NCBI RefSeq assembly: GCF_900078705.1
Contig: NZ_FKIF01000001.1
Coordinates: 310,001-374,000 of the forward strand
DNA length: 64,000 nt
From: Bordetella ansorpii
GTDB taxonomy: Bacteria; Pseudomonadota; Gammaproteobacteria; Burkholderiales; Burkholderiaceae_B
Direction of reading: 5' to 3'
Shown here: positions 48,453 through 62,696 of the stretch, in pieces
Position numbering within the stretch: the stretch's first letter is position 1
How the letters are laid out: each line of letters begins with the position of its first letter
The notes under the pieces: model-generated
Told to the model about the DNA's origin: nothing
What the model saw: the letters and a program-made list of their open reading frames with translations, nothing else
Database searches by the model: none
Position numbers and translations under genes: made by a program

Positions 48453-49394
48453 TCAGGCAAGCGGCGCGGCCTGCCGCGCGTACTCGTCAGCGACCGCCTC
48501 GATGCCCTGGCGCAGGCCGATGGTGGGACGCCAACCCAGCGCGTCCAGCCGGCCGATGTCCAGCAACTTGCGCGGCGTGCCGTCCGGCTTGCTCGGGTCA
48601 TAGGTCAACTGCCCACGAAAACCGATCACCTCGGCCACCATCTCCGCCAGTTCGGCGATGGAGATGTCCCAGCCCACGCCGACGTTGTACAAGCCCTGGG
48701 CCTGGTCGGACTGCGCCAGCATGACGCAGGCGCGGGCCAGATCGTCGACGTGCAGGAATTCCCGCCGGGGCTGCCCGGAGCCCCATATCGTCACGCGGTC
48801 CAGCCCCTGCTCGCGGGCCTCGTGGAACTTGCGGATCAGCGCCGGCAATACGTGGCTGATCCGCAGGTCGTAGCTGTCGTTGGGACCGTACAGATTGGTC
48901 GGCATGACGCACAGGTAGCGCGTACCGTATTGGCTGTTGTAGGCCTCGCAGAGCTTGATACCGGCGATCTTGGCGATGGCGTACGCCTCGTTGGTCGGCT
49001 CCAGCGGCCCGGTCAGCAGGGCATCTTCACGTATGGGCTGCGGCGCCAGGCGCGGATAGATGCAGGACGAGCCCAGGAACACCAGGCGCCGCACGCCGGC
49101 GCGAAAGGCCGCGTGGATCACATTGGTCTGGATCGCCAGATTGCGGTGGATGAAGTCCGCGGGAAAGGTCTGATTGGCCAGGATGCCCCCCACCTTGGCC
49201 GCGGCCAGGTAGACCATGTCCACGCGCTGCAGATGGAAGAACCGGTCGACCTGAGCCTGGTTCTCCAGGTCCAGGGATTCCCGCGTCCGGGTGACCACGT
49301 TGCGGTAGCCCTGCCGACGCAATTCGCGCTCGATGGCCGATCCCACCATGCCGCGATGGCCGGCGACGAAGACGTGCTGGTCGAGGTGGGCCAT
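48453..49394 (-). CDS. fcl: GDP-L-fucose synthase
   Basis: This 313-residue NADPH-dependent epimerase/reductase converts GDP-4-keto-6-deoxymannose to GDP-L-fucose. The nucleotide loop is [20 protein letters not shown]. The catalytic residues are in [11 protein letters not shown] (serine) and [20 protein letters not shown] (tyrosine and lysine), and the substrate region [12 protein letters not shown] is conserved. Length and order match E. coli Fcl (WcaG). It is 4 bases after gmd. Confidence 0.95.
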
Positions 49395-49398
49395 CGCA

Positions 49399-50511
49399 TC
49401 ACTCCTTGTATGCGTAGACTTCGTAGCCGTTCTGCCCGACCAGCGCATCGCGCTGGGCCTCCTTCAGGTCGCTGGCGATCATCTCGCGCACCAATTGCTC
49501 GAAGTCGGTGCGCGGCGTCCAGCCCAGTTTCTCGCGTGCCTTGGTCGGATCGCCCAGCAATGTCTCGACCTCCGTGGGACGGAAGTAGCGGGGATCCACA
49601 CGCACGATCACCTGGCCGGATTTCACGGCCTCGTAGGCCGGGCTGAGCAGCACGGTAGCCGTCTCGTTCACCCCGTCGCCCTCCCAGGCCAGCAACATGC
49701 CCAGCTCGCGCGCGGCGACGTTGATGAAGTCCCGGACGCTGTACTGCAGGCCGGTGGCGATCACGAAATCCTCAGGCTTGTCCTGCTGCAGCATCAACCA
49801 CTGCATCTCGACGTAATCGCGCGCGTGGCCCCAATCGCGGCGTGCCGAGAGATTTCCCAGGTACAGGCAGCCTTCAAGGCCCAGCGCGATGCGGGCCAGG
49901 GCACGCGTGATCTTGCGCGTGACGAACGTCTCGCCGCGACGGGGCGACTCGTGATTGAACAGAATGCCGTTGCATGCGTACATGCCGTAGGCCTCCCGGT
50001 AGTTCACGCAGATCCAGTAGGCGTACAGCTTGGCGGCGGCATAGGGGCTGCGCGGATGGAACGGCGTGCTCTCGCGCTGCGGCACCTCCTGCACCAGGCC
50101 GTACAGTTCGGAAGTGGAGGCCTGATAGAAGCGCGCCCGGTCCTCCATCTTCAGGATGCGCATCGCCTCCAGCAGGCGCAAGGTGCCCAGCCCGTCCGCG
50201 TTGGCCGTGTACTCGGGCTCCTCGAAGGACACGCCCACGTGGCTCTGGGCCGCCAGGTTGTAGATCTCGTCGGGCTGTACGGCCTGCACCACACGGATGA
50301 GGCTGCAGGCATCCGTCATGTCGCCGTGGTGCAGCACGAAATTGCGCGGCGTCTCGTGGGGATCCTGATACAGATGGTCGATGCGCGCGGTATTGAAGAC
50401 AGAGGCGCGGCGCTTGATGCCATGCACTTCGTAGCCCTTGCCAAGCAGGAACTCGGCCAGATAGGCGCCGTCCTGACCGGTGATGCCCGTGATCAATGCC
50501 CGTTTATGCAT
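49399..50511 (-). CDS. gmd: GDP-mannose 4,6-dehydratase
   Basis: This 370-residue enzyme makes GDP-4-keto-6-deoxymannose, the first step to GDP-fucose. [20 protein letters not shown] is the NADP-binding start, [20 protein letters not shown] fits the Gmd family, and the active site is in [11 protein letters not shown] and [15 protein letters not shown] with the tyrosine and lysine. [16 protein letters not shown] is another diagnostic strip. It lies 4 bases before fcl and 129 bases after manC; the gap might carry an internal promoter. Confidence 0.97.
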
Positions 50512-50640: not shown

Positions 50641-52065
50641 CTAGGCGCGGCCGTAGATATCTTCGAGACGGACGATGTCGTCCTCGCCCAGATAGGCCCC
50701 CGACTGCACCTCGATGAGTTCGAGCGCGATCTTGCCGGGGTTCTCCAGGCTATGGGTCTCGCCCAAAGGGATGTAGGTGGACTGGTTCTCCGTCAGCAGA
50801 TAGCTGCGCTCGCCGTTGCGGATCCGCGCGGTTCCCGTCACCACGACCCAATGCTCGGCGCGGTGGTGGTGCATCTGCAGCGACAGGCGCGCGCCGGGCT
50901 TCACGGTGATGCGCTTGATCTGATAGCGCGGTCCCTGACCCACGAGGTCATAGGCGCCCCAGGGACGCCGCACCTCGCGATGCTGCGCCAGCTCGGCGCG
51001 CCCCTGCGCGCGGAACGTTTCCACTGCGCGCCTGACCTCCTGCGCGCGGCTCTTGTGCACGACCAGCACGGCGTCGGCGGTCTCGATCACCATGATGTCG
51101 TCCAGGCCGATCGTCGCCACCAGACGGCTCGTGGCGTGGACCAGGCAGTTGTGCGAATCCTGGAGCAGCACGTCGCCCACGCTGGAATTTCCCTGCGGAC
51201 ATTTCTGTGCCATGTCCCACACGGCATCCCAGGCGCCCACGTCGCTCCACCCCGCGGTCAGCGGCACGGCCACGGCCCTGTCGGTATGTTCCATCACCGC
51301 ATAATCGATCGAATCGGCGGGGCAATCCGCGAACGCCGCCGGATCGAGCCGGAACACGTCGTCATCACCCGTTCCCGCCGACACGGCGGCGCGCACGGCC
51401 AGAAGCATCTCCGGCGCCAGCCGCTCCATCTCCGCCAGCAACACCGATGCGCGAAAGGCGAACATGCCGCTGTTCCAGTAATAGCTCCCATCGCGCAGGA
51501 ACTGCTCGGCGCGTTGCGCGTCGGGCTTCTCGACGAAAGCGTCGACACGGCGCCAGCGGCCCTGCCCCGCCTGCAGGCGCAAATAGCCATAACCCGTCGC
51601 GGGCGTCCTGGGCGCGATGCCGAAGGCCACCAGCGCCCCTTCGGCCGCCGCCTGCATCGCGATGGAGAATGCCTCCCGCAGCGCCGATCCTTCTTCGATG
51701 ACATGGTCGGAGGGCACCACCAGAAGCACGGGGTCCCGGCCGTCATGCATCGCGCGCAGCGCGGCGGCGGCGATGGCCGGCGCGGTGTTGCGTGGACAGG
51801 GCTCCAGCAGCAGCTCGGGCTGGATGCCGGGCAGGTCCTGCAACTGCTCGGCGGCAATGAAGCGGTGCGCCTCGTTGCAGACCAGCAGGGGACGCGTGGC
51901 GCCCGCGTGCAGGGCCAGCCGCATCACCGTGTCCTGCAGCAGGCTGCGGGCACCCGTCAAGCGGATGAACTGCTTGGGCAGGAACTCGCGCGACAGCGGC
52001 CAAAGCCGCGATCCGGCGCCACCGCACAACACGACGACGCGGCAATCGGCAGAAGAGAAAGTCAT
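50641..52065 (-). CDS. manC: bifunctional mannose-1-phosphate guanylyltransferase / mannose-6-phosphate isomerase
   Basis: This 474-residue ManC/CpsB-type enzyme makes GDP-mannose. The N-terminal guanylyltransferase shows VVLCGGAGSRLWPLSREFLP and KQFIRLTG, FVEKPDA and the active-site strand NSGMFAFRASVLLAEM. The C-terminal cupin isomerase domain includes RPWGAYDLVG, RLSLQMHHHRAEHWVVVTGT with metal-binding histidines, and ESTYIP-like QSTYIPLGETHSLEN. It overlaps the gmm gene by 4 bp and supplies gmd. Confidence 0.96.
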   Translation of the reverse strand: MTFSSADCRVVVLCGGAGSRLWPLSREFLPKQFIRLTGARSLLQDTVMRLALHAGATRPLLVCNEAHRFIAAEQLQDLPGIQPELLLEPCPRNTAPAIAAAALRAMHDGRDPVLLVVPSDHVIEEGSALREAFSIAMQAAAEGALVAFGIAPRTPATGYGYLRLQAGQGRWRRVDAFVEKPDAQRAEQFLRDGSYYWNSGMFAFRASVLLAEMERLAPEMLLAVRAAVSAGTGDDDVFRLDPAAFADCPADSIDYAVMEHTDRAVAVPLTAGWSDVGAWDAVWDMAQKCPQGNSSVGDVLLQDSHNCLVHATSRLVATIGLDDIMVIETADAVLVVHKSRAQEVRRAVETFRAQGRAELAQHREVRRPWGAYDLVGQGPRYQIKRITVKPGARLSLQMHHHRAEHWVVVTGTARIRNGERSYLLTENQSTYIPLGETHSLENPGKIALELIEVQSGAYLGEDDIVRLEDIYGRA

Positions 52066-52562
52066 TGAAGAGACTCCATGAAATAGGCCCGGGTGTAAGG
52101 ATGGACATCCCTATCCGCCGCGGCTTGCGCGGGGGTGTCCCAGCGGTAGGCGGCATGCTGGGCGGCGGGCAGGAGCAGGACCTGGTGATCGACGGACAGC
52201 CGGATCTCGTAGGCCAGCACCACGTAGTGGGTCTGCCTGCCGGTCTCGCCGGCGAAATTCACGTCGTAGAAATGTTCGTAGACACCCACCAGGGCGCAGG
52301 CCGAGGGCGGCAGCGCCGTGCCCAGCTCTTCGGCCGTCAGCCGCGCCAGCGCCTGGAGCAGCGTCTCGCCCTTGCGGATGCGTCCTCCCGGCACGAACCA
52401 GCAGCCCTGCGCGGGAGGGTTGCCGCGCAGGCCCAGCAAGTAGCGCCCGCCCGCATTGCGCACCAGCAGGTCGATCGCCACCAGCGGCAGCATGTCCACC
52501 GCCTGGCGAAACCGTTCGAAGGGCAACGTCCGCCGGGCGGCGGATGACGGATCAGTAGACAT
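52062..52562 (-). CDS. gmm: GDP-mannose mannosyl hydrolase (Nudix)
   Basis: This 166-residue Nudix hydrolase splits GDP-mannose and GDP-glucose and is often found in colanic-acid loci. PLVAIDLLVRNAGGRYLLGL and GNPPAQGCWFVPGGRIRKGE lead into the Nudix region GGRIRKGETLLQALARLTAE, which has the Gmm-type variation of the usual box. The start and stop overlap with its neighbours by 11 and 4 bp, so it is translationally linked to wcaJ and manC. It may adjust the GDP-sugar pool. Confidence 0.9.
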   Translation of the reverse strand: MSTDPSSAARRTLPFERFRQAVDMLPLVAIDLLVRNAGGRYLLGLRGNPPAQGCWFVPGGRIRKGETLLQALARLTAEELGTALPPSACALVGVYEHFYDVNFAGETGRQTHYVVLAYEIRLSVDHQVLLLPAAQHAAYRWDTPAQAAADRDVHPYTRAYFMESLQ

Positions 52563-53961
52563 CTTTGCCCGTCCAGCCAGCCACGGCAGTCCTGGCGATG
52601 ATCCGCAGGTCCATCAGGAACGTCCAGTTCTGGATGTAGTACAGATCGAACTCGACCCGGTCGCGCATCTTGAGCACCGTGTCCGTCTGCCCCCTGAAGC
52701 CGTTGACCTGCGCCCAGCCGGTGATGCCGGGCTTGACGCGATGGCGCATCATGTAGCGGGCGACCAGGTCCTTGAACTGCTCGTTGTGCTCCAGCGCATG
52801 CGGCCTCGGCCCGACCACCGACATCTCGCCGCGCAGCACGTTGAAGAACTGCGGCAGCTCGTCCAGGCTCGTGCGGCGCAGGAATGCGCCCAGCGCCGTG
52901 ACCCGCGCGTCATCGCGGGTGGCCTGCGTGACCCGGCCCGGCGTCTCGTGGTGCAGGGTCATGCTGCGGAACTTGTAGACCTGGAACACCTGGCCATCGA
53001 CCCCCAGCCGAGCCTGGGTGAACAGCACCGGCCCGCGCGAGCCGAGCTTGATCAGCACCGCAATGGCCAGCATCAGGGGCGCCAGCCCCACCAGCGCGCA
53101 CAGCGCGAACACGCGGTCGAAACCTTCCTTGGCCATGCCGCGCACGCCGGCGGCGGGCAGACTGTTCAGTTCGATCGCGGGCACCCCGAGGAACTCGTGC
53201 GCGCGATGGCCCAGCAAGTGCACCGACATCACGTCCGGGATCCAGCGCACGTCGATGGGATCATGGCGCAGCGCGTGCATGGCCAGGCTCACCAACTGGC
53301 TGGACTCGACAGGCAGCGCGATCCATACCTCGCGAACCTCGTGCTGCCGGATGAAACCGGACAGATCGTCCAGCGTTCGCAGGCGGTGCGCGCACGCCGG
53401 CGTCTGCTCCTTGGCATCGGCGTAGATGCCGACCACCTCGTAGCCCGTGCTGCGCGCCGCATGCACGCGGCGCCAGAGATCGTGGCCCAGCGCGCCGAAC
53501 CCGACCATGACCACCCGTTTGCCATTCAATCCCCGGTCACGCGCGCGGCGCAGTACGCCATGGGCCGCCAGGCGCGCGCCGACCAGGCCCACGGCGGTGG
53601 CCACGAACCAGGTGCCCGCCCATAGCCGCGAGATCGCCTCCGTCTGATGGCTCAGGAAACTGGCCAGGATCCCCAGCGCGAAGACGGTCGCCCAGGCGCC
53701 CAGGCTGCGCGCGGCCAGGTCGGCCAGGCTGCGCCCGCGCCAAGACGCATACAGCCGGAAGGCGGGGAACATCGCGATGGCAATGAAGCTGCACAGGTAG
53801 ACCAACAGCGCGTGGATCGGTGCGATATCGACCTGCTGCCGCTGCGCAAACCAATGCGTGGTCGTCATGCCGCAGGCCGCGATGATGGCCGCGTCGGCCA
53901 ACCGATACAGCACGCCGTTGCCGGCGAACCTGCCAGACACGTTCATCGGGGGCATGTCCAT
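52552..53961 (-). CDS. wcaJ: undecaprenyl-phosphate glucose phosphotransferase (initiating transferase)
   Basis: This 469-residue polyprenyl-phosphate hexose-1-phosphate transferase starts EPS repeat synthesis. It has four to five N-terminal membrane segments (LADAAIIAACGMTTTHW and LLVYLCSFIAIAMFPAFRLY), a central Rossmann-like domain (VVMVGFGALGHDLWRRVHA), a further membrane segment near ALVGLAPLMLAIAVLIKLG and the catalytic C-terminus with VYKFRSMTLH, LRRTSLDELPQFFNVLRGEM, VGPRPHALEHNE and VKPGITGWAQVNGFRGQTD. ATG 53961 has GGAG about seven bases upstream; three ATGs lie close together. It is the first gene of the twelve-gene minus-strand EPS operon. Confidence 0.94.
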   Translation of the reverse strand: MDMPPMNVSGRFAGNGVLYRLADAAIIAACGMTTTHWFAQRQQVDIAPIHALLVYLCSFIAIAMFPAFRLYASWRGRSLADLAARSLGAWATVFALGILASFLSHQTEAISRLWAGTWFVATAVGLVGARLAAHGVLRRARDRGLNGKRVVMVGFGALGHDLWRRVHAARSTGYEVVGIYADAKEQTPACAHRLRTLDDLSGFIRQHEVREVWIALPVESSQLVSLAMHALRHDPIDVRWIPDVMSVHLLGHRAHEFLGVPAIELNSLPAAGVRGMAKEGFDRVFALCALVGLAPLMLAIAVLIKLGSRGPVLFTQARLGVDGQVFQVYKFRSMTLHHETPGRVTQATRDDARVTALGAFLRRTSLDELPQFFNVLRGEMSVVGPRPHALEHNEQFKDLVARYMMRHRVKPGITGWAQVNGFRGQTDTVLKMRDRVEFDLYYIQNWTFLMDLRIIARTAVAGWTGKDVY

Positions 53962-54191
53962 GACGCGCTCCAGGGCGAGGCAACGCAGAGAGGCGGCCGA
54001 CACGGCCGATCGAGGCTTCTTGCGACGTTGCCCGGCCATCATAAGAAGCGGGCGGGCATGCCGAAACGGCCAAAAGGCTTACACGAGGCACTAAGCCATC
54101 CGCCCAATGTTCGACATCCGTCGGAACCGGTGGAATGTCGTAGCCCGTTACGCAACCCATTGCCGCGGCGCGGGGCTCCTCATCCTCTGGA
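53962..54191. promoter_or_regulatory. divergent promoter region of the EPS operons
   Basis: These 230 bases separate wcaJ and wza and must carry both promoters. A pair CGACAT and ATGTCG, 17 bases apart at about 54110-54140, is a candidate regulator site. No clear JUMPstart/ops element or consensus sigma-70 pair could be identified. Confidence 0.4.
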
Positions 54192-55334
54192 ATGCCAATG
54201 AAGACGTTAATTCGCACGTCGTGCAGGGCCGCCACGGTGGCGGCCGCCGTATCCATGCTGGGTGCCTGCGCGTACTCGCCAGGCATGCGATACAAGGCGG
54301 AATTCCTGGTCGACCCCAACGATCCCGCATCGCGTGCCGAGGTCAAGCGGATCACGCCGACGCTGGCGCTGGCCGCAACGCTGGCGCGCTCGCGGCCCGT
54401 GGCCGACGAGGTGCGTGCCCTGGTCGGCACCGCACGGCCCTATACCATCGGACCGGGAGACATCCTTTCCATCGTGATCTGGGACCACCCCGAACTCGTC
54501 CTTCCGACGCAGACATACAGCATCGGGACGGGACCGACCGAACTCGCCTTCGGGGATACCGGCGCCGGCGTACCGGGCTACCCCGTCTCGTCGGACGGCT
54601 ACGTCCAATTTCCGTATGTAGGCCTCCTGAAGGTATCCGGACTGACGGAGGGGCAGGTGCGTAGTGCTTTGGCACAAGGCCTTATCAACCATATTCCCAG
54701 TCCGCAGATCACGGTGCGCGTGCTAGGTTATCGCAGCAAGCGTGTCTACGTGGAGGGCGAGGTGAAGACTCCGGGGCCGATGCCGATCACCGACGTGCCG
54801 ATGACGTTGCCCGAGGCGATCAACCGGGCCGGCGGCCTGCTGCCCACCGCCGATCGCAGCCGGGTCCAGGTCACGCGCGGCGGCCGTACCGTGCGCGTGG
54901 ACCTGGGCGCCCTGAACGCCCAGAACATCGACCCGACGTCGATCCTGCTGCAAAGCGGCGACACCGTCCGGGTGCAGACACGCGCGGACAACAAGGTGTA
55001 TGTGATGGGAGAAGCGACACGGCCCGGCGCGCTGACCATGCGCGACGGCTCGTTGTCGTTGGGCGACGCGCTGGGCGAGGCCGGCGGGCCCAGCCAGTTG
55101 ACCAGCAATCCCGGCGATATCTATGTCGTGCGCTCCACGCCCCAGGCTCTGCCGGAGGTCTTCCACCTGGACAGCGCATCGCCGCAGGCCATGGCCGTCG
55201 CGCTGAAGTTCCCGCTCGAATCCCAGGACGTGGTGTTCATCGACGCCGGCGACCTGGTGAGATGGAACCGCTTCATTTCCCTGCTGTTCCCCAGCGCGCA
55301 GACGGTACAGACCCTGGACTCGACACGACGCTGA
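54192..55334 (+). CDS. wza: polysaccharide export outer-membrane lipoprotein
   Basis: This 380-residue Wza homologue forms the outer-membrane export channel. The signal ends SMLGACAYSP with the lipid-modified cysteine at about 26. The Poly_export domain begins YTIGPGDILSIVIWDHPELV and contains GYVQFPYVGLLKVSGLTEGQ; SLBB-type repeats follow (VYVEGEVKTPGPMPIT and VYVMGEATRPGALTMRDGSL), and the C-terminus near RWNRFISLLFPSAQTVQ is the amphipathic pore helix. Length matches E. coli Wza. Two close ATGs (54192 and 54198) are possible starts. It is divergent from wcaJ and followed by wzc. Confidence 0.94.
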   Translation: MPMKTLIRTSCRAATVAAAVSMLGACAYSPGMRYKAEFLVDPNDPASRAEVKRITPTLALAATLARSRPVADEVRALVGTARPYTIGPGDILSIVIWDHPELVLPTQTYSIGTGPTELAFGDTGAGVPGYPVSSDGYVQFPYVGLLKVSGLTEGQVRSALAQGLINHIPSPQITVRVLGYRSKRVYVEGEVKTPGPMPITDVPMTLPEAINRAGGLLPTADRSRVQVTRGGRTVRVDLGALNAQNIDPTSILLQSGDTVRVQTRADNKVYVMGEATRPGALTMRDGSLSLGDALGEAGGPSQLTSNPGDIYVVRSTPQALPEVFHLDSASPQAMAVALKFPLESQDVVFIDAGDLVRWNRFISLLFPSAQTVQTLDSTRR

Positions 55335-55426
55335 TGGCGTATTTGCCGCGCGGTATGCGGCGCATGGCAATGCAGTCCGCGGCACGCACGCGGACCCGCA
55401 TGCTTTTTCTCAATAGCGAGCCGACA

Positions 55427-57676
55427 ATGAAGCAGCCTCCTCTCCAGCTCGAGTACGCAGACACCCGCGCACCCGACATGCCGATGATGTCGTACCTGGA
55501 CGTACTGCTGGCGAACCGCCTGATGATCGCCACGATCACCTTGCTGGCGATGCTGGCGGGGCTGGTCTACTACATGCTGACGCCGCCCGTGTACCAGTCG
55601 GACATCGCGGTGCAGGTGGAGGAAGAAACCCCCACCTCGGCCAAGAGCATGCTGGGCGACGTGTCGGCGATCTTCGACATCAAGCAAGCGGCGTCCGGCG
55701 AAATGGAGATCCTGCGCTCGCGCCTGGTGACGGGCAGCGCGGTCGATCACTTCCACCTGTACGTGCATGCCTCGCCCGACTACTTCCCGGTCATCGGCCG
55801 CTGGCTGGCCGACAATCGCGACGGCATCGGGCTGTCCCCGGCACTACTGGACGCCCTCCCCGGCAACTACGCCTGGGGCGACGCGCGCATACAGGTCGAT
55901 CGCATCGACGTGCCGCAAGATCTCATCGGCAAGAAGCTGCGCGTGGTGGCGCTGCGGGACGGCGCCTATGAACTGATCGACAGCGTGCACGGCCTGCGTT
56001 TCGAAGGCCTGGTCGGCAGGCTGGAGCGCTTCGAGACTCCAGGCGGTGTGATCGAAATGGGGATCGGCGCGCTGCGGGCAAAGCCGGAAACGCACTTCAC
56101 GGTGACGCGCGAATCCCGCCTCGAAGCCATCGCCGCCCTTCAGGCCAGGATGGGCATTTTCGAGCGCGGCCGCCAATCGAACGTCATCGGCGTCACCCTG
56201 CAGGGAACCGATCCGGCCCTGACCGCCGCCGTGCTCAATGAAATCGGCCAGGAGTACGTCCGGCAGAACACGAATCGCAAGGCCGCGCAGGCCGAGAAAT
56301 CCCTGGCGTTCCTGGATCAGCAACTGCCCGAGCTGAAGAACCAGCTGGAGCAGTCCGAGGCCCGCTACAACGCCCTGCGCAATTCGCGCGGCACGATCGA
56401 CCTGGGAGAGGAGGCCAAGCTGGTACTCGGCCAGTCCGTCGAAGCACAGAACCGCATCTTCGACCTGGCGGCAAAACGGCAGGAACTGGCGACGCGCTTC
56501 GCGCGCTCGCATCCGAGCATCGAAGCCATCGACCGCCAGATCGGATCGATCCAGCGCGACATGGAGCGGCTCAACACGAAGATCCGGGGGCTGCCCGACC
56601 TGGAACAGGAGGTGGTGCGCCTGACGCGCGACGTCAAGGTCAACACCGAGCTGTACACGGGACTGTTGAACAACGCGCAGCAGCTGCGCATGATCCGCGC
56701 GGGCAAAGTCGGCAACGTGCGCGTCGTGGATGCCGCGCTGCCAGCCGAGCGGCCGCTCAGGCCCAAGGCGCCCATGGTGCTGGGCATCGCTACGCTCGCG
56801 GGCCTGCTGATCGGGCTGATCGCGGCATTCCTGCGCAATGCGCTGTTCGGCGGATTGACCGATCCGGAAGAGATCGAGCGGTATACGGGCCTGCCCGTGC
56901 TGGCCGCCGTGCCCTTCAGCGAACTGCAGGACAGGCTGTGGCGGCGCGCGCGGCGCAGGAAAGCCCGCGTCCCCGCGCTGCTGGCGCAAAGCAATGGCAA
57001 CACCCCACCCATCGAGAGCCTGCGCAGCTTCCGTACCGTGCTGCAGACCGCGATGCGCGGCTCGGCCAACAACATCATCGCCTTCTCGGGCCCCACCGCG
57101 GGGGTGGGCAAATCGTTCCTGTCGGCGAACTTCGCTTTCATCCAGGCGGCCGTGGGCAAGCGCGTACTGCTGATCGACGCGGATTTCCGGCGCGGCGCCC
57201 TGAACCGCTATTTCGCCGTGCCGCCGGGCGATGGCCTGTTCGAAGTCCTGGCCGGTGCGGCCACGCTCGAAGCCGCCACGCGCCGCGACGTGAGAAACGG
57301 CCTGGACTTCATCTCGGCCGGCAAGGTGACTTTCGATCCGTCGGAACTGCTGGCCGGCGATGCATTCGGAAAATGCCTGCGCAGGCTGTCCGCCGACTAC
57401 GACCTGATCATCATCGACACCGCGCCGGTGCTGTCGTCGTCCGGCGCGGCCGTGGTGGGCGCGCACGCCGCGGCCGTCATGCTGGTGGTGCGATCCGGCA
57501 TGAACTCGGTCGGCGAGATACGCGAGGCGGCGAAACGGCTGGAGCAGGCCGGCGCGACAGTGGCGGGCGTCATCTTCAACGGCCTGAAGCTGCGGGGCGA
57601 GGGGCTGGGTTACCGGCCCAAATACGGACGCTACCGGCATACGCGCGCCGCCTACTACGGCGACGGCCAACCCTAG
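55427..57676 (+). CDS. wzc: polysaccharide co-polymerase and BY-kinase
   Basis: This 749-residue inner-membrane protein regulates chain length and export. TM1 is near residues 30-50 (IATITLLAMLAGLVYYML), the periplasmic region is long and coiled-coil rich, and TM2 is in APMVLGIATLAGLLIGLIAA. The cytoplasmic tyrosine kinase has Walker A GPTAGVGKS at 555-563, Walker A' VLLIDADFRRG and Walker B LIIIDTAP. The last 21 residues form a tyrosine cluster at 729, 733, 736, 743 and 744, the autophosphorylation tail. ATG 55427 was chosen because the membrane segment follows at the usual distance. The usual partner phosphatase Wzb is not visible in the window. Confidence 0.93.
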   Translation: MKQPPLQLEYADTRAPDMPMMSYLDVLLANRLMIATITLLAMLAGLVYYMLTPPVYQSDIAVQVEEETPTSAKSMLGDVSAIFDIKQAASGEMEILRSRLVTGSAVDHFHLYVHASPDYFPVIGRWLADNRDGIGLSPALLDALPGNYAWGDARIQVDRIDVPQDLIGKKLRVVALRDGAYELIDSVHGLRFEGLVGRLERFETPGGVIEMGIGALRAKPETHFTVTRESRLEAIAALQARMGIFERGRQSNVIGVTLQGTDPALTAAVLNEIGQEYVRQNTNRKAAQAEKSLAFLDQQLPELKNQLEQSEARYNALRNSRGTIDLGEEAKLVLGQSVEAQNRIFDLAAKRQELATRFARSHPSIEAIDRQIGSIQRDMERLNTKIRGLPDLEQEVVRLTRDVKVNTELYTGLLNNAQQLRMIRAGKVGNVRVVDAALPAERPLRPKAPMVLGIATLAGLLIGLIAAFLRNALFGGLTDPEEIERYTGLPVLAAVPFSELQDRLWRRARRRKARVPALLAQSNGNTPPIESLRSFRTVLQTAMRGSANNIIAFSGPTAGVGKSFLSANFAFIQAAVGKRVLLIDADFRRGALNRYFAVPPGDGLFEVLAGAATLEAATRRDVRNGLDFISAGKVTFDPSELLAGDAFGKCLRRLSADYDLIIIDTAPVLSSSGAAVVGAHAAAVMLVVRSGMNSVGEIREAAKRLEQAGATVAGVIFNGLKLRGEGLGYRPKYGRYRHTRAAYYGDGQP

Positions 57677-57695: not shown

Positions 57696-59087
57696 ATGCA
57701 CCACCCCGCTCCCGCCGCCGTTCCCGGCTTCGCCTCGCAGGCCTTCCGGACCGACGACGTCCGCGGCCGCTTCGGCCAGGAGATCGACCACCGCTTCGCG
57801 CACGCTTTCGGGCGGGCGGTGGGAGAACGCGCGATGCGATCCGGCTGCAGATCGGTGGTCGTCGGCCGCGACGCCAGGCTGAGCAGCATCGAACTGGCGG
57901 CCGCGTTGCAGGCCGGCATCCGGGACACCGGCATGAACATCATCGACATCGGCATGGCGCCTACGCCGCTGACGTGGTTCGCCGCCCGGCTGACCGACAC
58001 GGGCGCGGCGGTGTCCGTCACCGGCGGCCATGACGAAGAGGCCAGCAACGGCTTCAAGGTCATGCTCGGCGGCAGCGTCCTGGGCGGACCTGCGCTGCAA
58101 GCGCTGCGTCCGGCAATGCAGCCATCCACCGCGCATCAGGACGGGCGCTACGGCACCCGCACGGGCATGGACGCGGCACGCTGCTACGCCGCCCGGGTGG
58201 CCAGCGACGTGATACTGGCGCGAACGGTCAAGGTTGCCCTGGATTGCAGCGACTCGGTGCGCGCCCTGGCGGTCGAGGTGCTGGAGGAGACCGGCTGCGA
58301 GGTCCTGGACGTGTCGCGGCAACCCAGGTACGAAGCCGGCAGCCATGACCCGCGGCACGCGCTGCCAAGACTCGCCACCTACCTGCGCCATACCGACTGC
58401 GAGATCGGGCTACTGCTGGGCGGCGATGGCGACCGCATCGGCGTTGCGCATCGCTCAGGCATCGCCACTGGCACCGACAGGCTGGCCTTGCTGCTGGCGC
58501 GCGACATGCTGCCGGGGCGCGCCGGCATGCGCGTCCTGCACGATGTCGGCAGCACCAGGCTGCTTCCGCGAGAAGTGCGCCAGCTCGGCGGCTTCCCTGT
58601 CATGTGCCATGGCGGCGAGGTCTGCATGGCCACCCAGATGCGCCAGTCGGACGCCATGCTCGGCGCCGAGATGAACGGCAGTATCCGCTTCCGCGACCGA
58701 TGGAATGGCTACAGCGACGGGCTGTACGCCGCGGTCCGCCTGCTGGAAATACTGTCGCGCCATCCCGACGCCGGCGAGGCGCTGGAGGCGCTGCCGCAGA
58801 CGTACTCGACGCCGGAGTTCCGCCTGGCCCTGCACTACGGCGAGCCGGATCGCCTGATCGAGGCGCTGCGCGCCGACGGGCAGTTCGCGCGGGCGCGCAG
58901 TATCCGGCACGTGGAGGGCGTGCGGGTCGAGTACGACGACGGCTTCGCCATGGCGCGCGTGGCGCCCGCCGGCATCGCGGTGCTGATGCGTTTCGAGGGG
59001 GACGATGGCGCCGCGCTATGGCGTATCCAGGAGGAATTCCGGCGGCATCTGCTGGAATTCTCGCCCGGCTTGAAACTGCCCTTTTGA
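57696..59087 (+). CDS. phosphomannomutase/phosphoglucomutase homologue, probable pseudoenzyme
   Basis: This 463-residue protein is the length of Pseudomonas AlgC and keeps the four-domain alpha-D-phosphohexomutase pattern (QAFRTDDVRGRFGQEI and RWNGYSDGLYAAVRLLEILS). All four functional loops are changed. The phosphoserine loop TGSHNP is TGGHDE (109-114, glycine 111 for serine). The metal loop DGDGDR is GGDGDR (242-247, first aspartate lost). The sugar loop GEMSGH is AEMNGS (324-329). The phosphate loop RASNTTP is RVAPAGI (421-427). H308 of AlgC aligns with E308. Such a protein should not catalyse phosphotransfer. It follows wzc by 19 bases, so it probably serves EPS export or regulation. Confidence 0.85.
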   Translation: MHHPAPAAVPGFASQAFRTDDVRGRFGQEIDHRFAHAFGRAVGERAMRSGCRSVVVGRDARLSSIELAAALQAGIRDTGMNIIDIGMAPTPLTWFAARLTDTGAAVSVTGGHDEEASNGFKVMLGGSVLGGPALQALRPAMQPSTAHQDGRYGTRTGMDAARCYAARVASDVILARTVKVALDCSDSVRALAVEVLEETGCEVLDVSRQPRYEAGSHDPRHALPRLATYLRHTDCEIGLLLGGDGDRIGVAHRSGIATGTDRLALLLARDMLPGRAGMRVLHDVGSTRLLPREVRQLGGFPVMCHGGEVCMATQMRQSDAMLGAEMNGSIRFRDRWNGYSDGLYAAVRLLEILSRHPDAGEALEALPQTYSTPEFRLALHYGEPDRLIEALRADGQFARARSIRHVEGVRVEYDDGFAMARVAPAGIAVLMRFEGDDGAALWRIQEEFRRHLLEFSPGLKLPF

Positions 59088-59529
59088 GCGCCCTTCCGCG
59101 CCCGTGGCATACGCTTCCCGCATTCGCCCGTCAGGCGCGGACGGGCCGTGGAGCTCCTCATCCTTGGGTCGCGCTCAGCGAAATGGCTCGATCGGCGCCC
59201 GCAACCCGGCATCGCACGGGACGTCGAGACAATGCATCCCATGCGGCGACTTCCGGTATTTCGAGATAGGGGGCGAGGCCAGATACTTCGTCGCCAGCGC
59301 ACCGATGGCCGGATAGGTATGCCCCGCGGCCGCTTTCGTTGCGCAGCCACGACAATGCTTGTAACCGTCAGGCCAGAGGCAGGCAAACGCCGCCGTCCGT
59401 CACCTTTTCAAAAAAAGCCGTCGTTATACTCAGCGCGCAGTCGTCCTTCACATCGTGTCGCAGTCTGTAAAGGCGCGCCAGCTTGCGTGCCCATTTCTCG
59501 GGGCCTAGCCCGCCCGTTTGCGAATCGCC
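59088..59529. other. intergenic region between EPS and PIG-L genes
   Basis: These 442 bases hold a terminator-like hairpin at 59126-59146 and, near 59400, an AT-rich run with TATACT at 59425-59430, a good -10 candidate for the PIG-L gene. No correctly spaced -35 was found. Small open frames here have no protein character. Confidence 0.45.
59126..59146 (+). terminator. hairpin downstream of the wza-wzc operon
   Basis: GCCCGTC-AGGCGCG-GACGGGC is a perfect 7-bp stem with a 7-base loop, 39 bases after the phosphohexomutase-like stop. No T-run follows, so termination would need a factor. Confidence 0.4.
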
Positions 59530-61524
59530 ATGCCAGCCGCCGCGGCCATCCGCCGCATCATTGCCCGCTTCATCCTGCCTTGCGTGGCAGGCCTCATCAG
59601 CGCCCCGTCCGCCAGCGCGGCCGCCACGGCCCCCTCGCTGGAAGAATGCCACGGCATCAAGGACATGGCATTCGTCGCGCACCTGGACGACGACCTGCTG
59701 TTCATGAACCCGGACATCGCCTCGAACATCGAGGCCGGCGGATGCGTGCGCGTCGTCTACCTGACGGCCAGCGATGCCGGCGAGGGCGAGGGCTACATGC
59801 TGGGCCGCGAGAAAGGGGTGCGCGCCGCCTATGCCTACATGGCGCGCCAGCCCGACCTGTGGAGCACCGACACCCTGCAGGCCAACGGCCGCGCCATCAC
59901 CCGCGTCACGCTGCAGGGCAACCCACGCGTGCAACTGGTGCACATGCGCCTGAAAGACCCGTGGCTGGGCAAGGGCTGGGGCAGCCTGACCCCGCTGAGC
60001 CGCACCGAGTCCGAACCGCAGACCCCGTCCGACACCCTGGGCCCGAACCAGGAGACCTACACGCGCGACGCGCTGGTGAAGACGCTGGCCGCGCTGATCC
60101 GCGACTACGGCCCCACCACCGTGCGCCACCTGGACGACCAGACCCCGGTGCCCTATACCCAGCTGTGCTGGCGCTGCACCGGCCACAGCCATCCCGACCA
60201 CATCGCCAGCGCCCGCCTGACGCGCGAGGCCATGGCGCTGGTGCCCGGCAATTACGCCGAGGCGGGCTACGTCGACTACCCCTCCCAGGAACGCGCCGCC
60301 AACCTGAGCGATGCCGAGACCATCCTCAAGTCCGAGATCTTCCGCCGCTACGCATGGGAGGACTACAAGTACTGCAAGGGTCCGCAAGGGTGCCAGGAAC
60401 CCGCCGGCCCCGCCGCCGCCTGGGTGCAGCGCTCGTACTACGTCTCGCGCCAGGACTTCGCCCCCGAACTGCACAGCGATGCCCGCCACGGGTTGCAGGT
60501 GTTCGCGGCCGGCGAGGCCAACGACGCCGTCAATCTGTGGGACTCGCGCCAGGGCCGCTGGACCTCGCTGGGCGGACGCACCGCCGGCTCGCTGGTGTCC
60601 TTCACCTATCCCGACGCCAGCGCCGGCGTCTTCGCGCGCGACACGCTGGGCAGCCTGTGGGTGAACAAGCAGAACCTGGACGGCAGTTGGAAGGGCTGGC
60701 AGGCCATGTCCGGCGTGCGCTTCTCGAACAGTCCGGTCGTCGCGCCGCGCGACGCCGCCGCCGTGGCCATGGGCAATGACGGCCGCTATTACTGGACCTC
60801 GCCGTCGGGCATCGGCGGCGACTGGCACGCGTGGCAGCCGCTGCCCGTACTGGCAGAGGCCGCCGGCAGCCCCGCCATCGCCAGGAACGCCGCGGGCCGC
60901 TTCGTGGTGTTCGCCATCGATCGCGCCGGCAATGCCTGGTCGACGACGCAGCGCGCCGTCGGCCACGACGGCGGCTGGGCGGCCTGGCAACCCGTGCCGG
61001 TCGCGGCCAGCGCCGGCGGACTGGCCGCCATGCGCAACGCCCAGGGCCTCATCGAGCTTTATCTGCGCAACCGCGACAACAAGCGCCTGATGCGCGTGGT
61101 CGAGGAGAAGCCCGCCACCGCGCGCGCCGCCGCCATCCACTGGGCGGGCGCCGAAGACCTGGGCGTGCCGTACGTCGGCAAGCCGGCGATCGGCCCCGAC
61201 GCGCAGGGCAACGTGCTGGTGTCCGTCCTTGAACGGGCCGACGGCCCGCTGTGGCTGGTCGAGCACGGCCGCGCCACGCTGCTGGAAGCCACCGCGAGTT
61301 CGCTGCCCGCCATGCGCATGGTCGACGGCACGCTTTACGTGGTCGCCCGCAGTTCGGGCGACCCGCAGACCTACCGGATGCTGGCCCGACGCGGCGGCGT
61401 ATGGCGTCCGGCCACGTCGCTGGCCGCCTTGCCCGCGAGCGGCGGCGGCGCCTTCGGCAAGACGGTTCCCACCGTCATCGCCACCACCACGCCGCCTGCC
61501 GCGGCCTTGCCGCAAAGCAGGTGA
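59530..61524 (+). CDS. secreted PIG-L family deacetylase with C-terminal propeller-like domain
   Basis: This 664-residue protein starts with a Sec signal peptide (MPAAAAIRRIIARFILPCVA to about residue 30, PSASA). The PIG-L deacetylase core has the zinc motif AHLDDDLLFMN in place of AHPDDE and the later zinc histidine in HSHPDHIAS, with SDAGEGEGYMLGREKG between. Residues 330-640 form a repeat-rich beta-propeller-like part (WDSRQGRWTSLGG, SPSGIGGDWHAWQPL, VGHDGGWAAWQPVPVAA), probably carbohydrate-binding. Its place after the EPS genes suggests deacetylation of a surface polysaccharide, but its substrate is unknown. No strong RBS precedes the ATG at 59530; TTG 59518 is also in frame. Confidence 0.85.
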   Translation: MPAAAAIRRIIARFILPCVAGLISAPSASAAATAPSLEECHGIKDMAFVAHLDDDLLFMNPDIASNIEAGGCVRVVYLTASDAGEGEGYMLGREKGVRAAYAYMARQPDLWSTDTLQANGRAITRVTLQGNPRVQLVHMRLKDPWLGKGWGSLTPLSRTESEPQTPSDTLGPNQETYTRDALVKTLAALIRDYGPTTVRHLDDQTPVPYTQLCWRCTGHSHPDHIASARLTREAMALVPGNYAEAGYVDYPSQERAANLSDAETILKSEIFRRYAWEDYKYCKGPQGCQEPAGPAAAWVQRSYYVSRQDFAPELHSDARHGLQVFAAGEANDAVNLWDSRQGRWTSLGGRTAGSLVSFTYPDASAGVFARDTLGSLWVNKQNLDGSWKGWQAMSGVRFSNSPVVAPRDAAAVAMGNDGRYYWTSPSGIGGDWHAWQPLPVLAEAAGSPAIARNAAGRFVVFAIDRAGNAWSTTQRAVGHDGGWAAWQPVPVAASAGGLAAMRNAQGLIELYLRNRDNKRLMRVVEEKPATARAAAIHWAGAEDLGVPYVGKPAIGPDAQGNVLVSVLERADGPLWLVEHGRATLLEATASSLPAMRMVDGTLYVVARSSGDPQTYRMLARRGGVWRPATSLAALPASGGGAFGKTVPTVIATTTPPAAALPQSR

Positions 61525-61631
61525 TACACCTCGGTACAAGGCGCGACACTCTCGTCTCATATCGAGAAAACACGGGCGGTACGATACCCGGGCACTTGGC
61601 TTGGCCCCTCCAATCCACCGGAACCGCTTTC

Positions 61632-62696
61632 ATGACGGACATCGACGAAGACGAGGTTGCGCATGGCTGGGACGCCATCGACGCGGCCATCAAAACGATC
61701 TACCCCACCCAGGAACCCAAGCACTACGGCACCATCATCAGCTATCGGCTGGGCGGCAACGATCCGCTGCAAGGCGTCAGCGCCTACAAGCGCATGGACC
61801 CCATACCGCACTGGCACTACGTCACGTACGGCTTCACCGAGCTCTACGGCAAAGAGTCGGACGACGCCGAGATCAGCGGCTACGGCTTCGAGCTGACCCT
61901 GCGCCTGCGCTGCGCGCCCGATGCGGAAGATCCGCCCATGTGGGTGATCAACTTCCTGCAGAACCTGGCGCGCTACGTCTTCAAGACCGGCAACGTGTTC
62001 CGTGACGGCGACTGGCTGGCCGCCAACGGCCCCATCGCGGTCGAAGAGAAGACCCAGCTCACGTATGTGGCGTTCGCCGCCGACCCGGAACTGCCCACGC
62101 AGCAGACGCCCAACGGCGAGTTCGAATTCCTGCAGGTCATCGGCCTGACCGAGGACGAGGCCTATGCGGCACGGCTGTGGCGCACGCGGGACCTGCTGGA
62201 AGTGCTCAAGCCCCACATGCCGCTGTACATCACCGACCTGGCGCGCGACTCGCTGATGGGCCGGCCCGGCGTGCAGGACAGCATCGAGCGCGGCCGCAAG
62301 GAAAGCGGCTCGTCCACCGGCTACGTGTATACCGACGAGCTGGACTGGCGGCAGGAGAAGCGCCTGCTGGGCAAGCCCGCCACCATCGTCACGCTGGGCG
62401 CGCTGCAAGTGCAGGAAGCCACCACGCTGCTGCCGCTGCGCCTGCCCTTCGGCCGCGACCTGCGCCTGCTCAGCAACAACAAGAACGTGGTGTTCGCGCC
62501 GGGCGAGAACGCGCTGCGCACGGAAGACGACGTGTTGTACGTCACGCTGGACGATGCGGCGGTCGATGAGATCGCTTCGCTGCTGCAACCCAGGCGCGGC
62601 GAGTATCCCCTGAAGTCTTTCAAGGGCTTTCGCATCGACGTGCGCCCCACCGAGGTCAAGGACCCCAAGGGCAACGTCGTGCAGACGATAGGCTAG
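61632..62696 (+). CDS. suppressor of fused (SUFU) domain protein
   Basis: This 354-residue cytoplasmic protein carries a SUFU-like N-terminal fold: GWDAIDAAIKTIYPTQEPKH, HYVTYGFTELYGKESDDAEI and GYGFELTLRLRC, then MWVINFLQNLARYVFKTGNV, the family's conserved strip. Residues 220-354 extend beyond the core. In bacteria SUFU proteins are frequent immunity proteins in polymorphic-toxin systems, but no toxin gene is adjacent. The ATG at 61632 was chosen because the domain starts about ten residues later. It is 107 bases after the PIG-L gene and convergent with the dehydrogenase gene. Confidence 0.85.
   Translation: MTDIDEDEVAHGWDAIDAAIKTIYPTQEPKHYGTIISYRLGGNDPLQGVSAYKRMDPIPHWHYVTYGFTELYGKESDDAEISGYGFELTLRLRCAPDAEDPPMWVINFLQNLARYVFKTGNVFRDGDWLAANGPIAVEEKTQLTYVAFAADPELPTQQTPNGEFEFLQVIGLTEDEAYAARLWRTRDLLEVLKPHMPLYITDLARDSLMGRPGVQDSIERGRKESGSSTGYVYTDELDWRQEKRLLGKPATIVTLGALQVQEATTLLPLRLPFGRDLRLLSNNKNVVFAPGENALRTEDDVLYVTLDDAAVDEIASLLQPRRGEYPLKSFKGFRIDVRPTEVKDPKGNVVQTIG

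Follow-up and report, generated by a model that had tools for sequence, protein, structure and literature searches.

The gene at positions 57,696 to 59,087 (+ strand) of the window, which is the whole 64,000-nucleotide stretch of Bordetella ansorpii DNA analyzed here, encodes a 463-aa protein with the fold of a phosphohexomutase and altered residues in its catalytic loops. We infer inactivity, role and partner alike, and we consider it probable that the product is a genuine pseudoenzyme, retained because of its fold and likely serving as a cytosolic scaffold or regulator in exopolysaccharide (EPS) synthesis.

The reading frame, the Pfam domains and the tree identify this as the third gene, after wza and wzc. 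The frame comprises 463 codons with an ATG start and zero internal stops, a GGGGGA stretch precedes the ATG, and the spacer from the wzc stop (last base 57,676) measures 19 bases, so the open reading frame and the coordinates agree with the intact frame and spacing given in the preliminary description. All three Pfam domains, PGM_PMM_I, II and III (three alpha/beta/alpha domains), scored above their cut-offs, with domain II as the weakest match (33.4 vs a cut-off of 29.3 bits). The nearest solved relatives by sequence are the PMM/PGM enzymes of Burkholderia (3uw2, E 4e-90) and Pseudomonas (E 1e-78), and the PDB sequence match spans residues 13–463. The predicted structure reached a mean pLDDT of 89.2 and matched P. 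aeruginosa PMM/PGM best (4il8, TM 0.92), in a model that was pulled towards the known fold by the intact homologues in its alignment. Pfam, PDB and the model thus agree on the four-domain fold of an active alpha-D-phosphohexomutase (AlgC / ManB / CpsG). Five NCBIfam mutase models also matched the protein, all of them below cut-off (best PgmG, 240.7 vs 600 bits). The length had been described as exactly that of AlgC, and 463 residues do equal the P. aeruginosa PDB chain; however, the AlgC of the same genome has 461 aa and the nine dead operon copies range from 463 to 484 aa (starts chosen by the analyst), so we take the match as a coincidence.

The four loop readings reported before, TGGHDE, GGDGDR, AEMNGS and RVAPAGI, were all reproduced. 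In loop 0 (FRTDDVRG, residues 17–24; 57,744–57,767, +), the invariant Tyr is replaced by Asp and Arg23 is kept. The phosphoserine loop (TGGHDE, residues 109–114; 58,020–58,037, +) carries Gly111 in place of the nucleophilic Ser that is phosphorylated in an active mutase. The metal loop (GGDGDR, residues 242–247; 58,419–58,436, +) has lost the first of the three metal-coordinating aspartates, leaving two, while four orthologues from genus g9 have all three. Furthermore, the invariant His308 is Glu in the domain-3 loop (HGGEV, residues 305–309; 58,608–58,622, +), and the sugar loop (AEMNGS, residues 324–329; 58,665–58,682, +), which holds both Glu and Ser in active mutases, keeps Glu325 only, with Ser327 and His329 gone. 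The phosphate loop (RVAPAGI, residues 421–427; 58,956–58,976, +) keeps Arg421 and has lost Ser-Asn-Thr-Thr. The roles of these loops in phosphoryl transfer and in metal, sugar and phosphate binding are described in the available text on Xanthomonas PGM (PMC6443537), and that on the P. aeruginosa enzyme names S108 and residues 242–246 (PMC3369874). Changes also affect other positions in the loops at which 50 intact relatives show no variation, e.g., Tyr20Asp, Lys285Gly and His308Glu; the window copy retains R23, K121, D244, D246, R247, E325 and R421. Taken together, Pfam, the loops and the predicted structure describe a fold that is kept and a catalytic motif that is lost, as expected of a pseudoenzyme.

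Among the 181 positions that are invariant in the 50 intact relatives, 48 lie in the loops, of which the window copy has retained 23, and 133 lie outside them, of which it has retained 86; this excess of loop losses is not significant for the window copy on its own (P 0.058). The same bias towards loop losses was found in 13 other dead copies, with P values from 0.033 to 8e-6 that are uncorrected and mutually non-independent. A sequencing or frame artefact is an unlikely cause, because six other genomes have the same serine loss at the same place.

The gene lies in an EPS cluster of the GDP-fucose, Wzx/Wzy type, in which several gene names are provisional. Co-directional with the phosphohexomutase gene are a wza-type export protein gene (380 aa; 54,192–55,334, +; NCBIfam PRK15078, below its cut-off) and wzc, encoding a tyrosine autokinase / polysaccharide co-polymerase (804 aa; 55,262–57,676, +; NCBIfam TIGR01005 above cut-off, Wzc models below theirs). 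The remaining genes are divergent, starting with a wcaJ-type undecaprenyl-phosphate glucose phosphotransferase gene (52,552–54,042, −; TIGR03023 above cut-off). It is followed by a small reading frame that is syntenic in relatives and that we take to be a Nudix-type gene (52,062–52,562, −), and by a second syntenic one, presumably a manC-type GDP-mannose gene (50,641–52,065, −). The next reading frame is 82–95% identical in syntenic relatives and presumably represents gmd, for GDP-mannose 4,6-dehydratase (49,399–50,511, −), and the last, syntenic where the compared stretch extends that far, we assume to be fcl, for GDP-fucose synthase (48,453–49,448, −). A promoter and terminator scan returned nothing above shuffled controls. 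Beyond the pseudoenzyme gene, positions 59,518–61,524 encode a protein of 668 aa (86% identical in genome G011) that carries a PIG-L deacetylase domain at its N-terminus, and the reading frame at 61,251–62,696 matched the SUFU domain (suppressor of fused; E 2e-39).

For the distribution of the gene, 268 family genomes were searched with the window protein and with Wzc. A Wzc match at E 1e-180 was obtained in 68 of the 268 genomes, 56 of which reached at least 54% identity. In these 56 genomes with this Wzc type, the phosphohexomutase keeps its catalytic residues in 42, is dead in 9 and is absent from this place in 5. All 42 operon copies found in Achromobacter (g2) keep the catalytic residues: 39 are exact in seven motifs, 2 have one change beside them and 1 is cut by a contig end. 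By coordinates, the copy adjoins wzc in 40 of the 42, and in G042 and G046 the two genes lie on different contigs; a 43rd g2 genome (57% complete) gave no match with either query. The dead copies, all of which lost the serine, comprise the window copy, six from genus g9 and two from genus g38, whereas no phosphohexomutase gene was found next to wzc in G011, which shares the genus code of the window, and in four g31 genomes. The altered loops are more than a chance finding: on the best 80 of 219 loci, a strict three-motif test passed 74; 3 differed solely by GELSGH and 3 were dead, the latter from the g9 genomes G102, G106 and G107. An order-wide search of 399 evenly sampled genomes gave 29 loci whose loops were read, 28 of them canonical and the other that of G105 (g9); no dead copy from outside the family appeared among these 29. 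A scan of genome contigs with the window protein as sole query found no relative.

The alternative raised in the preliminary description, a decaying copy without a conserved family of orthologues, does not describe these data, as orthologues are present in g9 and g38. Its question of whether they share the loop changes has a divided answer: Ser to Gly and Asn to Asp occur in all seven g9-plus-window copies, but the change in the metal loop, i.e., the loss of the first Asp, occurs in only three of the seven. Synteny of wza, wzc and the phosphohexomutase gene with a downstream epimerase gene was found in six g9 stretches, in G216 and in the three Achromobacter stretches covered by the gene-by-gene comparison; in these three, the epimerase gene follows some 1.7 kb past the mutase. 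This epimerase gene was sought and not found in the window and in G011, so the operon end differs in the genus of the window from that in the g9, g38 and g2 stretches. G011 has the same cluster (66–92% identity to the window) without a phosphohexomutase gene. Approximately 7 kb separate its wzc from the PIG-L gene, the one that follows next on this strand in the window; the interval begins with what we take to be genes for a sensor kinase of the PAS type and for a response regulator.

In the outgroup-rooted tree, the operon copies, dead and intact, grouped as a single clade to the exclusion of housekeeping AlgC (support 100/99.9). The window copy grouped with the g9 copies (95/94 and 100/100), a placement that is less sure owing to the long window branch, as the tree tool warns; its end branch measures 0.98 vs 0.22 and 0.26 for the nearest relatives. 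An independent serine loss in the window copy is therefore not favored, with the same reservation about the long branch. The careful tree was built from 22 of the 69 rows together with four rows for the outgroup, and five fragments (L017, L074, L075, L080 and L081) of the 69 rows were left out of the trees and of the invariant-position analysis. The g38 copies likewise have Gly for the catalytic Ser, and a tree that holds them with the intact Achromobacter copies was not rejected (p-AU 0.245). The operon gene is best read as a paralogue of the housekeeping phosphomannomutase/phosphoglucomutase AlgC beside wza and wzc. In the ancestor of the g9 and window copies, the phosphate-carrying serine would have been exchanged for glycine, and the remaining loops would then have changed lineage by lineage; the serine loss in g38 may be the same event or a separate one.

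A second, intact AlgC had been proposed as something to look for, and it is present: contig 6 of the window genome carries a canonical 461-aa AlgC with intact catalytic motifs, and the genome also encodes GlmM. Because of this canonical AlgC, the phosphomannomutase activity of the genome need not depend on the operon gene. An intact AlgC elsewhere was found in all nine genomes with a dead operon copy (window, g9 and g38).

Further irregular phosphohexomutases were observed in the searched genomes. In the genus of the window, L057 (G005), L058 (G008) and L059 (G010) belong to another type of AlgC paralogue that is degenerate and not syntenic, with TGRRDG, CTSDSP or CTSETP replacing TGSHNP; genes for LuxR-type regulators, an MFS transporter and a protein with hexapeptide repeats lie near L057 and L059. 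In genus g41, diverged phosphohexomutase genes form adjacent pairs (L071/L087 in G225 and L076/L088 in G226), and the better-matching member of each pair lacks most catalytic residues. In G004, again from the genus of the window, the housekeeping AlgC (L017) matches in three separate pieces, as if broken.

With regard to selection, the dead copies of g9 and g38 are clearly constrained. NG86 pairwise dN/dS was 0.073–0.178 among four g9 copies, 0.212 for G105–G104 and 0.057 for the g38 pair, compared to 0.028–0.127 for six intact operon copies; the housekeeping AlgC genes from these four g9 genomes gave 0.033–0.082. Comparisons across the two g9 subgroups yielded 0.336–0.448 for the dead copies vs 0.118–0.186 for their AlgC, which indicates faster change on the deeper branches. 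A codon model of 17 of the 69 rows and 453 columns gave omega values of 0.057 (four g9 copies), 0.035 (g38) and 0.069 (G105 and G104) for dead copies and 0.226 for the inner branches of the dead group, with 0.045 for intact operon copies and 0.080 for housekeeping ones. Fixing omega at 1 lowered the log-likelihood by 357 (four g9 copies), 136 (g38), 161 (G105 and G104) and 16 (inner branches). Direct estimates for the window branch and the g38 stem were unusable, as the fitted branch length reached its limit. The omega of the window branch was instead profiled by re-fitting the branch lengths of the seven-copy group while kappa and the other omegas were held, and the log-likelihood fell by 55.8 at omega 1 and by 17.6 at omega 0.3. 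At the fitted length, neutral evolution would be expected to yield 5.6–7.3 stop-making changes, and the probability of none is 0.0007–0.004. A neutral pseudogene is thus rejected by the codon models, with omega at 1 over the window branch, and by the open frame; from the omega profile and the absent stops, the gene has not been neutral over its history.

The most serious competing explanation, which we nevertheless consider unlikely, is that the window copy has become redundant and is slowly decaying: an ancestral selected pseudoenzyme or weak enzyme would now be losing constraint and heading for deletion, perhaps already completed in the relative G011. This fits the same cluster without the gene in G011, the missing epimerase in both genomes and the long end branch. 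It also fits an NG86 dN/dS of 0.389–0.524 between the window copy and the six g9 copies, a comparison in which dS is near saturation. However, the intact AlgC of the window genome gave 0.270–0.426 against g9 AlgC, so the high ratio is partly not special to the dead copy, and both the fully open frame and the window-branch profile speak against decay. The pseudoenzyme gene is among the fastest of its operon: across five dead-lineage comparisons of seven operon genes, it was the fastest in three and second to the presumed Nudix gene in two, and between the window and G105 it is 55.3% identical, while the other six genes are 72.8–93.3% identical. Among intact copies, the phosphohexomutase gene keeps pace with wza and wzc. 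A recent loss of constraint in the window copy is possible given the long branch and the saturated dS. The earlier claim of a selected pseudoenzyme is supported in that it has orthologues with dead loops (g9 and g38), for which the evidence of present purifying selection is strong; for the window copy, this evidence is weaker. From the kept fold and the purifying selection together, we infer a non-catalytic job.

A new enzyme is another conceivable outcome, though an improbable one. The cleft would have been rebuilt around the acid pair Asp113 and Asp/Glu114 and a new Arg331, with further use of the kept Arg23, Lys121, Asp244, Asp246, Arg247, Glu325 and Arg421. Indeed, Asn-Pro is replaced by Asp113 and Asp/Glu114 in all seven g9-plus-window copies, and 15 positions are fixed in these seven to residues unseen in the 50 intact relatives, among them Ser111Gly, Asn113Asp, Tyr20Asp and Phe331Arg. 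Moreover, the Tyr20, metal and His308 loops show 0 differences per site among the four g9 copies, compared to 0.141 in the phosphoserine loop and 0.204 in the sugar loop. The phosphate loop of the same four copies, however, drifts at 0.52 differences per site vs 0.113 in the rest of the protein, the metal loop varies as described above, and position 310, a new His in six of the copies, is occupied by Cys in the window copy. In addition, charged loop residues were not preferentially kept (8 of 16 vs 11 of 32 others, P 0.36, not significant).

The preliminary description had further suggested a sensor of sugar phosphates, and to this we assign only a slim chance. Such a protein would have retained binding of hexose phosphates or bisphosphates and would signal their level to Wzc or another EPS protein. 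Arg23, Arg247, Arg421 and Glu325 are kept in all seven g9-plus-window copies, the phosphate loop is invariant in the g38 pair (vs 0.042 elsewhere), and inactive herring PGM5 still binds glucose 1-phosphate according to the available text (PMC7761743). The suggestion is weakened by the phosphate loop being the fastest-changing part in g9 (the 0.52 vs 0.113 given above for four copies); over all seven g9-plus-window copies the loop differs at 0.655 vs 0.344 elsewhere, and for G105–G104 at 0.375 vs 0.258. The window copy itself lacks the Ser-Asn-Thr of this loop as well as His329, Ser327, His308 and Tyr20; with the phosphate anchor gone and, in g9, drifting, sensing of a phosphosugar becomes less likely. 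That slow phosphohexomutase activity remains is hardly credible. The gene does sit in the operon where GDP-mannose synthesis would require such an enzyme, and the fold with several cleft residues is kept; against this stand the simultaneous loss of the nucleophile and of residues in every loop, and mutase models that all match below cut-off.

Under the preferred reading of a scaffold or regulator, the loss of catalysis would be affordable because the housekeeping AlgC can presumably supply both mannose-1-phosphate and glucose-1-phosphate. The protein would act by contact with another part of the EPS machinery, and AlgC, ManC, WcaJ or the kinase domain of Wzc are candidates. E. coli Wzc phosphorylates and activates Ugd, an EPS precursor enzyme, according to the available text (PMC2516531), which makes contact between Wzc and precursor enzymes plausible. 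As a requirement, the partnership with Wzc that had been suggested is weakened, and an obligate partner fails, by the 5 of 56 genomes (G011 and the four from g31) that have this Wzc type without the gene beside it. Since some relatives have the same operon without the gene, it would be helpful rather than essential.

Several known systems offer comparisons. The AlgC-type PMM/PGM enzymes (P. aeruginosa; Burkholderia 3uw2) share the four-domain fold and the length and are related via the clade of EPS-operon paralogues; unlike them, the window copy lacks the catalytic serine, one metal Asp and residues of the sugar and phosphate loops. The phosphohexomutase GlmM inhibits CdaA and is an active enzyme, unlike the pseudoenzyme proposed here. 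According to the structure entries, GlmM is found in solved complexes with the cyclase domain of CdaA (7olh, 7ojs and 9g69). The tyrosine pseudokinase EcpK of Myxococcus is a pseudoenzyme in a Wzx/Wzy EPS pathway and a proposed scaffold (PMC12004946); it has a kinase-like fold, and its direct contact with the co-polymerase was shown, whereas for the window protein such contact is hypothetical. Pseudoenzymes of the superfamily as such are already known from vertebrate PGM5 / aciculin, the closest known kind and likewise an inactive member kept for a structural job. Of the active-site loops of fish PGM5, the one that binds phosphate is conserved least, and in the dead g9 copies it also changes fastest (available text of PMC7761743 for PGM5). 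PGM5 is, however, a eukaryotic muscle protein that is only remotely related to the window protein (12% identity), and the herring protein keeps the serine that the window copy lacks (PMC7761743, same text). After EcpK, GlmM–CdaA and PGM5, a scaffolding or regulatory role in EPS synthesis is our best guess, made by analogy. No bacterial phosphohexomutase pseudoenzyme was found in the literature searched, in which subscription papers are thinly covered.

Tentatively, and with less confidence than for the window gene itself, one may consider that phosphohexomutase pseudoenzymes form a conserved family in bacteria, regulate exopolysaccharide assembly by contact and arose repeatedly when operons captured AlgC paralogues. 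Such a family would consist of the window copy plus those of g9 and g38, joined by the separate ones of G005/G008/G010 and of G225/G226, captured by an EPS operon or another one. Its g9-plus-window group would have a rebuilt cleft, marked by TGG[HQ]D[DE] and Arg331.

The finding also calls for caution in annotation. The Pfam domains would name this gene a phosphomannomutase, and models of the GDP-mannose pathway would then count an enzyme that very likely lacks such activity. For the family, one orthologous operon gene is found in three states, intact in 42, dead in 9 and absent in 5 genomes. This three-state series lends itself to the question of which tasks a metabolic enzyme has apart from catalysis, and at what point such a second job becomes its sole one.
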